Positions 325 through 4,070 of a stretch of DNA of 64,000 bases are shown here, piece by piece; positions within the stretch are counted from its first letter, which is position 1, and the number at the start of each line of letters is the position of its first letter. This DNA is from Gemmatimonadota bacterium. Lineage in GTDB: Bacteria; Gemmatimonadota; Gemmatimonadetes; Gemmatimonadales; Gemmatimonadaceae. Under the pieces are notes generated by a model. It was not told the DNA's origin and searched no databases. It was given only the letters and a program-made list of their open reading frames with translations. Location of the stretch: positions 434,001-498,000 of the forward strand of contig JAZKBK010000004.1 of assembly GCA_040388625.1 (NCBI GenBank), given 5' to 3'. The translations under genes were made by a program, and so were the position numbers.

Positions 325-1011
325 TCATCGCACACGCCCCAGTGGACCAAGGTCAATTTGCAAATCTTCCTCCGAAAGGCCGAAAACGCGTTTGAGCTCA
401 CTCATTCTATCATTCAACTTCGCAAGAGCCAGTCCCAACCGCTCCACTTCCTCATCTGTCAGCCGTCCACCTTCCATGCGCCGGACAGCCTGATGTTCCA
501 GAACCTTCCTGAGCACCTCGATCAGGGTCAACACCAGTCGTGCGAGCCCGGTTTCAGGACCGGCCGCATCGGCGTTGATCCGCTCGGGTAAGCCTTGAGC
601 CACGCTGTTGAGTGATTGCCCGGTCGGCTGCTCCCTCTCGACCAGCGCCGGCGGCTCCCTGTCCCCCCGCTCTGCTCTCGCAAGTATCGGCGCAGCAGTT
701 CGCGGAATCGACCCAAAACTACCAGCGATCGACCGTGACGGCTCGGGCGGAGCCCGCATCCTCTGCTCAGCGGTCGCAACGGCCTGGAGCAGCAACCCGA
801 TGTTTAGCTTGATCAAATCTACGTCCGCGACGGCGATCGTGACCTCGCCGTGCACTACCGCACCACGGTCAAGAACCGTATTGAGCAGGTCGCTGAGGTC
901 CAGCGGCTCGTCGCCCAGCAGAGTCGCCGGCTGGCCTACCCGCAACTCCTCGAAAGACCCCTCCAGCGGGCCGTCGCGCAGCTTGTCGCGCGGGTCGGAG
1001 TCAGCGACCAC
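325..1011 (-). CDS. gvpK: fusion of a GvpA/J/S-like domain with GvpK, gas vesicle protein
   Basis: One reading frame joins two gas vesicle families that are normally separate proteins. Counting from the GTG at 1011 (228 residues), residues about 35-83 are a GvpA-superfamily core (EPLDLSDLLNTVLDRG, then a ...VDLIKLNIGLLL helix). Residues 84-140 are a proline/arginine-rich linker. Residues 141-228 are a complete GvpK (LARLVLTLIEVLRKVLEHQA, GRLTDEEVERLG, terminal LGPLGRV). GvpK is an essential accessory protein in vesicle assembly. The open frame extends upstream to a TTG at 1050, but GTG at 1011 overlaps the gvpL stop by only 11 nt and is preferred. Neither start has a clear Shine-Dalgarno, so translational coupling to gvpL is likely. 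No stop or frameshift lies between the domains. Confidence 0.88.
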   Translation of the reverse strand: MVADSDPRDKLRDGPLEGSFEELRVGQPATLLGDEPLDLSDLLNTVLDRGAVVHGEVTIAVADVDLIKLNIGLLLQAVATAEQRMRAPPEPSRSIAGSFGSIPRTAAPILARAERGDREPPALVEREQPTGQSLNSVAQGLPERINADAAGPETGLARLVLTLIEVLRKVLEHQAVRRMEGGRLTDEEVERLGLALAKLNDRMSELKRVFGLSEEDLQIDLGPLGRVR

Positions 1012-2086: not shown

Positions 2087-2947
2087 CTAGTTGGCCTTCT
2101 CCAGCTTGAGCTTGATGTTGACGAAATTGTACGGCGGCCACGGTCCGGTGTACTTGAACGCGAGCAGGTGCTCGTAGCGACGGCTGAGCTCCTTAACGAC
2201 TTCATCGAACGCCTTCTCACCCGATCGGTTCACCAGAAACGCGGCGTTCATGATCATCCGGTCGCCTATGACCTTGTTGCTCCTGCTCGCGACTGAAACC
2301 CGCTTGAGCTCCTCGTGTACGGTGGCGACGTACCGGCTGGCGGAGTCTTCCAGCGCGCCCTCGATCAAGCGCCCGAGCTGCATGCGAGCGAAATACGTGG
2401 ATGACGACGCGTTGCGCGTGATCTCGTCCTTCAGCTTTCGAATCTCGTCATTGTCCTGCTCGATGCTCTCGACGACGCGGTCGCGATCCCAGCGGATCTG
2501 CACACCGAATTCGATCTTGTCCTTCATCTTTTCGAGAACGTCGGTGAACGCTTCGTACGTGGAGCGAAGCAGCTGTCCCACATCCTCTTCAGACCGGAAG
2601 ACCGTTCCGAACGACATCGGGATGACGGTGAACTCGCGCATCACCGTTTCATTCACGAATTCGTGTGCGAGCACGTTCTCACGCGTCGGATCGTAGATCA
2701 CGATCGGCGTGTCGCTGACCACGGCGGCCAGATCCTCATGATGGACGGTGTAAACGCGGGCGCTTCCGCCGATGCCTATGTCACCGAAATCCCGCGGAGT
2801 CTGATGCCGGATGATGCAGTAGACATACTTGCCCTCGGCCGGCGCGACGGCGAGCGAATCGCTCGCCGCGTCGGATTCGCTGCTGGCGTCGAAAAGCGAT
2901 GCGTCGAGCGCGCTCATTCTGTCGTCACTCAATGGCTGTCGTTCCAT
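2087..2947 (-). CDS. gvpF: GvpF/GvpL family gas vesicle protein (first copy)
   Basis: A GvpF/L family assembly protein of about 286 residues. It has KYVYCIIRHQ at the first strand, VIPMSFGTVF in the middle, a long coiled-coil-like helix (DNDEIRKLKDEI) and the C-terminal YTGPWPPYNFV signature. The frame is open to 3010. The ATG at 2947 is preferred because it follows a GGAGGGG motif, although the spacing is long. A later ATG at 2917 is possible. With the 2947 start the gene overlaps the end of the M28 peptidase gene by 23 nt, which ties the gas vesicle genes to the trpS-peptidase transcript. An acidic Ser/Asp-rich N-terminal leader of about 35 residues precedes the fold. Confidence 0.9.
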   Translation of the reverse strand: MERQPLSDDRMSALDASLFDASSESDAASDSLAVAPAEGKYVYCIIRHQTPRDFGDIGIGGSARVYTVHHEDLAAVVSDTPIVIYDPTRENVLAHEFVNETVMREFTVIPMSFGTVFRSEEDVGQLLRSTYEAFTDVLEKMKDKIEFGVQIRWDRDRVVESIEQDNDEIRKLKDEITRNASSSTYFARMQLGRLIEGALEDSASRYVATVHEELKRVSVASRSNKVIGDRMIMNAAFLVNRSGEKAFDEVVKELSRRYEHLLAFKYTGPWPPYNFVNIKLKLEKAN

Positions 2948-4070
2948 TTCCGTCGAAAACCCCCTCCGAGCTGTTACGCGCTGCAACGATTGCGCCGACG
3001 AGTGAAGCAATCACACCGGCCGCACTTTCGACGCCGACGCCGGACATTCTGTCCAGAGTATCGTGCGCAGTGTGCACCCGGGCAAGCGAATAACGCGTTC
3101 CCCGGCTGACAGTGCACGCGGCCCATCCCTCATCAGCAAACGCCGTCGAGTCCATAAGGATCCCGGGAAGTCCTCGCCGAATTCGCGCGTCGAACCCCAG
3201 CACCCCATTCCTGCGCAAAGACTGCAATAGATGACGTCCGGCGCCAGTGGCTGTAATCGTCAGCGCGCCCCGGTCATCCACACCATCACAGTTAATCACC
3301 ACGCCAGCGCCCTTGGATTGCACCCAGGCACGGGCACCGGCGAGGCCCAATTCCTCGGCGGAAGTTATGAGCACTCCGACGGGGATCACCCCATCGATGA
3401 TGCTCGCGGCCCTCAGAATGGCCGCGACGCCGCTGGCATTGTCCAGCGCCCCGCTGCCGCGTGTGCCTACCCACGAAAGTAATAATGGCACAGAAGCAAC
3501 GGCTCCGCAGGTGGCCGCGCCAAGGAGCAGCGCACCCGGCAGGGGCAAGACGCGAGAAGCGGTCCAAACGAGAATCAGACAGACCCAGCTGGTAAGAGCC
3601 CCCACCGCGGCGGCGGCTCGAATCAACAGCGAGACCGGTTGGCTCTTGCTGTCGAGGTGAGCCATGAGCCACACCGAAGGAACACCGCGGCGACCCTCGA
3701 GATTCACCCCGAACCTGCGCGCGAACGGAAGTCGGCGCGTGCCATAGCGGCCCAGCCACCACCCCGACACGGAAACGGCAGCGACCAGCGCAATTCCGAC
3801 TGCCAGGCCCGTGTCCGTCGCGGCTCCCCCGCGCACCGCCCCAATTGCGGCCACGGTCGCTGCGGCGAAGAGCACCAGCCCCGCGATCGGCGTTCCCCAC
3901 ATCCCGGGGAACGCGGAGTAGCCGAAAGGCCGTTGCTCTACCACGAAACCAGCGTCGGTCAGCCACGTCGCACAAATGGTTCGAGCGGCCGACTCGGCGG
4001 CAGATCCGGCCGGACGCGCCGATCCGCCGATGCGTGCGAGCAGAGCCTGACCTTCCGCGGTACCGCTCAC
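2925..4070 (-). CDS. membrane-embedded M28-family zinc peptidase
   Basis: A 381-residue protein starting with GTG 3 nt after the trpS stop. It keeps all expected M28 metallopeptidase residues: His138 and Asp140 in AHLDS, Asp210 in GALDNASG, Glu239-Glu240 in SAEELG, Asp262 in NCDGVDD and His336 in HTAHD. About four hydrophobic helices (roughly 60-79, 87-106, 147-170, 174-198) are built into the chain. Two of them sit between the first zinc histidine and the bridging aspartate, where soluble M28 enzymes have a short loop. It should be an integral membrane aminopeptidase or carboxypeptidase whose substrate is unknown. It shares a transcription unit with trpS upstream and gvp genes downstream. 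Confidence 0.82.
   Translation of the reverse strand: MSGTAEGQALLARIGGSARPAGSAAESAARTICATWLTDAGFVVEQRPFGYSAFPGMWGTPIAGLVLFAAATVAAIGAVRGGAATDTGLAVGIALVAAVSVSGWWLGRYGTRRLPFARRFGVNLEGRRGVPSVWLMAHLDSKSQPVSLLIRAAAAVGALTSWVCLILVWTASRVLPLPGALLLGAATCGAVASVPLLLSWVGTRGSGALDNASGVAAILRAASIIDGVIPVGVLITSAEELGLAGARAWVQSKGAGVVINCDGVDDRGALTITATGAGRHLLQSLRRNGVLGFDARIRRGLPGILMDSTAFADEGWAACTVSRGTRYSLARVHTAHDTLDRMSGVGVESAAGVIASLVGAIVAARNSSEGVFDGNGTTAIE

Follow-up and report, generated by a model that had tools for sequence, protein, structure and literature searches.

Recurrent natural fusion of a GvpS-type domain with GvpK in gas-vesicle gene clusters of Gemmatimonadota

In Bacillus (Priestia) megaterium GvpS, GvpK and GvpJ are each required for the interaction between GvpA2 and GvpL, and they have been proposed as the seeds of vesicles (PMC11445434). 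Seeding has been called the least understood step of vesicle assembly, and GvpK proved essential in each of the four systems examined, with a role that is still unknown (PMC11445434). In the passage of that paper that cites mass spectrometry, GvpK is given as absent from purified vesicles; tagged GvpS and tagged GvpK were found to bind vesicles weakly (PMC11223475). In haloarchaea the gene for a minor GvpA-family protein (GvpM or GvpJ) adjoins gvpK, and GvpL binds J, K and M, GvpL (and not GvpM or GvpJ) being the sole split-GFP partner of GvpK (PMC7688916). In all these systems the GvpA relatives and GvpK are separate proteins. This also holds for the closest parallels to the locus described here, B. 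megaterium and the Actinomycetota, where genes of the same two families occur in the same order (with an overlap of 47 bp between gvpS and gvpK in B. megaterium; PMC11223475), and for the separate S-K neighbours of Streptomyces, Nonomuraea and Spartinivicinus. A fusion of a GvpK homologue was remarked on earlier (PMC2963123), with a haloacid-dehalogenase domain as the other partner and no shell-family domain. The gvp sets known so far to be functional comprise about eight genes (PMC11223475).

The window analysed here, a stretch of 64,000 nucleotides (G000:C4:434001-498000) from a Gemmatimonadaceae genome of 3.84 Mb that is 99% complete, contains a gas-vesicle cluster in which the two families are joined by a linker in one chain, and which lacks the gvpL/F gene found between S and K in unfused Gemmatimonadota. 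The fused gene, which we named gvpSK, occupies positions 325-1011 on the minus strand: a single open frame runs from the GTG start at 1011 to 325 (228 codons and a stop), and stops interrupt the frame on the plus strand. A reading of the sequence alone, which named no strand, had proposed that this frame joins a shell-type GvpA-family core to a full GvpK through a linker rich in proline and arginine, and a hmmscan of the 228-residue protein against Pfam bore out both domains, each above the curated cut-off of 25 bits that applies to either family. The GvpA-family domain (PF00741; 38.7 bits, E 1.1e-9, profile positions 2-38 of 39) covers residues 39-75, at 787-897, and GvpK (PF05121; 105.9 bits, E 1.2e-30, profile positions 1-83 of 85) covers residues 144-226, at 334-582. 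The 10-20 residues that precede the Pfam match, SLNSVAQGLPERINAD, were assigned to GvpK as well because stand-alone GvpK proteins carry the same segment, so that the complete GvpK, including this N-terminal LPERINAD segment, extends over 334-615. Between the domains lies a fast-evolving linker, predicted to be unstructured, of 48 residues (about 85-132, at 616-759), which with 8 prolines and 7 arginines is fairly called Pro/Arg-rich in this species. A search of the fused chain against NCBIfam gave no equivalog name.

A few bases of overlap link the GTG start of gvpSK with the stop codon of the gvpL/F gene upstream, and all four congeneric genomes have a GTG at this place, as would be expected for translational coupling. 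An alternative start is a TTG at position 945 (an ATG at the equivalent position in G021); either start lies upstream of the S domain, and the two-domain architecture therefore does not depend on the choice between them.

The full-length GvpK match stands inside a recognisable gvp cluster, with GvpF/L, GvpG and GvpA genes, all on the minus strand in the order gvpF-gvpG-gvpL-gvpSK-gvpJ-gvpA. The cluster begins with a gvpF/L paralogue upstream of gvpG (2087-3010; PF06386, 261 bits), followed by gvpG (1780-2085; PF05120, 66 bits), for which an ATG at 2085 is the probable start within an open reading frame that extends to 2220. Next comes a second gvpL/F paralogue (1001-1783; PF06386, 186 bits), which a tree shows to be orthologous to the gvpL/F gene located before gvpS in unfused clusters. 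Downstream of gvpSK lie a gene of the GvpA family that falls in the GvpJ-type clade (13-315; PF00741, 61 bits) and the start codon, at 1-4, of a gvpA of the shell-type clade, the rest of which lies outside the window (G000:C4:433708-434004; L004 ORF 8709-9005). These two genes and gvpSK are the only three GvpA-family genes of the genome, and gvpSK is both its sole GvpK gene and its sole S-type gene; it must therefore fill both roles, if vesicles form.

Directly downstream of gvpA a PAS-domain histidine kinase of 760 aa is encoded (L004:6446-8728, minus strand), and gvp clusters on methanotroph plasmids likewise have genes for a response regulator and for a PAS or ATP-binding protein at their borders, which suggests that such clusters are under sensory control. 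Several unfused Gemmatimonadota clusters without GvpN encode an ArsA-type ATPase that is duplicated and about 620 aa long (PF02374; L066:2875-4749), in several cases between gvpG and the next gvpL/F gene; neither the fused clade nor the unfused G107 and G199 have it. ArsA homologues associated with gvp genes were noted before (PMC2963123). One genome, G094, has a second, haloarchaea-like gvp cluster (G094:C257), with a long frame (L069:2282-3586, minus strand) that opens with a GvpA-family domain and has a C-terminal region without a Pfam match.

The phylogeny of the GvpA-family domains (88 rows and 62 columns, with many forks unresolved and with the B. megaterium GvpS not included) separated shell GvpA (100/100) and an S-type group (99/93) from each other and from the GvpJ types. 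In the S-type group the fused domains stand together with the S genes that are separate in unfused Gemmatimonadota and with short gvpK-adjacent genes of Streptomyces and Nonomuraea; the haloarchaeal minor proteins fall outside it, a placement that is weakly resolved on few columns. On this tree the N-terminal domain of gvpSK is assigned to the GvpS type, and the gene was named accordingly because its domain falls in the S-type group. The earlier identification of a GvpA-family core next to GvpK thus holds, with the label shell-type narrowed to GvpS type. Shell GvpA as the fusion partner was ruled out, as the shell-type clade excludes the gvpSK domain, and so was GvpJ, whose types are separate from the S-type group.

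The fusion is conserved among relatives. We surveyed one phylum and a plasmid collection; in the sample of 395 Gemmatimonadota genomes GvpK scored above the cut-off in 39, and PF00741 was searched for in the 40 genomes with any GvpK match, after which the loci were mapped. Both domains were found in one frame in 13 of the 39 GvpK-bearing genomes, distributed over three genera (four genomes in g1, six in g3 and three in g13), and also in G260, a single assembly from another family. A scan of GTDB contigs yielded further fused loci at 48-94% identity, with related contigs labelled Gemmatimonadetes/Gemmatimonadaceae, among them the same fused frame, at 94% identity, in an independently assembled relative (DAHUXM010000034.1). 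Eight further fused relatives were tested singly and both domains exceeded the Pfam cut-offs in each. There is no stop codon between the domains, the linker being open in the 13 clade members, in G260 and in two plasmid lineages.

The two plasmid lineages are methanotrophs, and their fusions (WP_197732044.1 of a Methylocella tundrae plasmid and WP_142864684.1 of a Methylosinus sp. C49 plasmid, at L055:5941-6576 and L058:4905-5564) are already present in public databases. Like gvpSK they combine PF00741 and PF05121 in one chain, S-type domain first, with a gvpJ-type gene next; unlike gvpSK they lie in clusters with GvpN and a single gvpL/F, and both trees give them a separate origin. The RefSeq name of both proteins is GvpJ, despite their S-type domain and GvpK and the gvpJ-type gene that follows each. 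The one-chain architecture pointed out in the sequence-only reading is therefore not unique to this genome. Both domains belong to known families, and the architecture had been deposited, unremarked, as GvpJ; in the open literature searched (mostly titles, abstracts and passages, subscription papers being outside the scope) we found no description of a GvpS-GvpK or GvpJ-GvpK fusion.

The 13 genomes with the fusion group as a single clade in the GvpK tree (support 96/92), and the distribution of the fused state requires three changes, one each for this clade, G260 and the methanotroph plasmids. The GvpA-family tree likewise requires three changes, and from these phylogenies the GvpS-GvpK fusion is estimated to have arisen at least three times.

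Gene order provides an indication of how this happened. In unfused Gemmatimonadota with complete mapped loci the order is gvpL/F-gvpG-(..)-gvpL/F-gvpS-gvpL/F-gvpK-gvpJ-gvpA, and in the fused clade it is gvpL/F-gvpG-gvpL/F-gvpSK-gvpJ-gvpA. The gvpL/F gene that precedes gvpSK groups with the one that precedes unfused gvpS (100/97), apart from the copy that separates S from K; the retained gene is therefore the one before gvpS, and it is the intervening gene that was lost. Probably, then, this loss joined gvpS to gvpK: the ancestor of the three Gemmatimonadaceae genera would have lost the gvpL/F gene between them, upon which the flanking genes would have been joined in frame. For G260 a comparison within the genus could be made. 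Its DNA is 92% identical to that of G185 up to the end of gvpS, after which about 600 bp within the gvpL/F gene are missing and gvpS continues in frame into gvpK, the linker containing the tail of the gvpL/F gene in a shifted frame and the old start methionine of GvpK; a single assembly documents this fusion. The separate gvpS and gvpK genes of Spartinivicinus and Nonomuraea share a reading frame and are divided by one stop codon, and by analogy the methanotroph fusion may have originated from genes that were already adjacent and in frame.

Comparison between species of the clade shows that purifying selection acts strongly on the S and K domains (dN/dS about 0.05-0.2 where dS is unsaturated). 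The linker has a dN of 0.4-1.0, with dS near saturation, and has nevertheless stayed open, with length changes in whole codons only. A shuffled version of one linker stays open with a probability of 0.30, so that an open linker in one genome means little; it is the in-frame openness across the clade that counts as evidence. An AlphaFold2 model of gvpSK, based on 21 sequences, showed a helix-strand-strand-helix fold of low confidence for the S domain, an unstructured linker and a GvpK core of two helices (pLDDT about 70-80); with a mean pLDDT of 52.8 this model supports no claim of contact between S and K. A profile search of the PDB returned no GvpK homologue, only GvpA shell entries with weak scores (E 0.001-0.006).

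From these data we consider it fairly probable that gvpSK encodes a two-domain assembly factor that arose through loss of a gvpL/F gene and ties GvpK in cis to a GvpS seed. The GvpS-type domain would bind or seed the nascent vesicle shell, the flexible linker would keep one GvpK domain, soluble and helical, at that site for each S domain (a 1:1 ratio), and the tethered GvpK would help to bring GvpL and the shell subunits together. We infer that the chain remains uncleaved, retains both functions and takes part in seeding, which fits the published joint action of GvpS, GvpK and GvpJ upstream of shell growth. The three fusions suggest that GvpS and GvpK act together when vesicles start. Two of the published results cited above speak against this reading, namely GvpL as the sole split-GFP partner of GvpK in haloarchaea and the absence of GvpK from purified vesicles. 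A location of GvpK at the nucleation or tip region, as was proposed when the frame was first read, is plausible and agrees with published models.

A further-reaching reading, which we put forward only tentatively, is that a scaffold has given way to the covalent link: the product of the lost gvpL/F gene would once have held S and K together and have become dispensable after their joining, leaving a six-gene machine with GvpK as part of the seed. In other systems GvpL does bind partners of both kinds. A gvpL/F gene was indeed lost at both fusions in Gemmatimonadota. Its deletion is, however, simply needed to fuse S and K, and a GvpL-like bridging function of the tether therefore stays hypothetical.

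Rather doubtful, in our view, is that the fusion was neutral, loss of gvpL/F having joined neighbours by accident, with a passive linker between independent domains and the position and function of GvpK unchanged. Where two genes frequently lie side by side, their fusion can be neutral and does not require contact between the domains. It is also mechanically easy, as clusters without relation to one another have gvpS next to gvpK, in frame and just one stop apart in the two genera mentioned above, and the linker, at the dN given, has little conserved sequence. Assays in E. coli showed tolerance of all the GvpS fusions tried and of the majority of the GvpK fusions, and GvpS accepts tags at either end (PMC11445434). 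Yet three independent fusions, always with S before K, and the persistence of one of them throughout a clade indicate that the fusion is at least compatible with joint action, though neutrality would fit them as well.

It is very unlikely that the chain is a precursor that is cut in the linker, or that an internal start yields GvpK in addition, with GvpS and GvpK then acting as separate proteins, as they do elsewhere. The predicted lack of structure in the linker would permit this, and an in-frame methionine in the linkers of G260 (the retained ancestral gvpK ATG) and of some g3 genomes (in a conserved STMESQVV motif) could start a separate GvpK, though no clear ribosome-binding site accompanies it. 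In the genus of the window no start codon in the linker has a convincing ribosome-binding site, and no cleavage motif is conserved in the linker across the fused clade.

Very unlikely is also that the cluster is a decaying relic and the fusion a step in its decay. The fused-clade genomes tested had no GvpN, GvpO or ArsA-type ATPase genome-wide (with positive controls run; for GvpN, TIGR02640 was above the cut-off in none of 28 genomes and in three of three controls), which would be in line with decay. GvpN and GvpO are, however, also missing from unfused Gemmatimonadota with intact clusters, all six genes of the present cluster are intact, gvpSK is under the purifying selection described above, and four congeneric species do not differ in their shell gvpA domain.

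The merging of two genes by an assembly or sequencing error, a concern as most of these genomes are metagenome assemblies, can practically be dismissed and is refuted for the clade, since 13 genomes from three genera have the same fused frame, even where identity falls to about 48%, with only in-frame indels in the linker and both domains constrained. Relatives with separate adjacent genes had been named beforehand as a sign of such an error; separate genes do exist in this phylum, but in differently organised loci with gvpL/F between them, and because the fused frame is conserved in 13 species they represent the ancestral alternative and not evidence of error. The gene is a real, natural fusion of GvpS with GvpK.

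The recurrent natural fusion with GvpS provides good comparative evidence that GvpS and the essential GvpK act at one place, and gvpSK is a ready construct for testing their joint action. The six-gene clusters may, if they make vesicles, define a smaller gene set for the engineering of ultrasound reporters.
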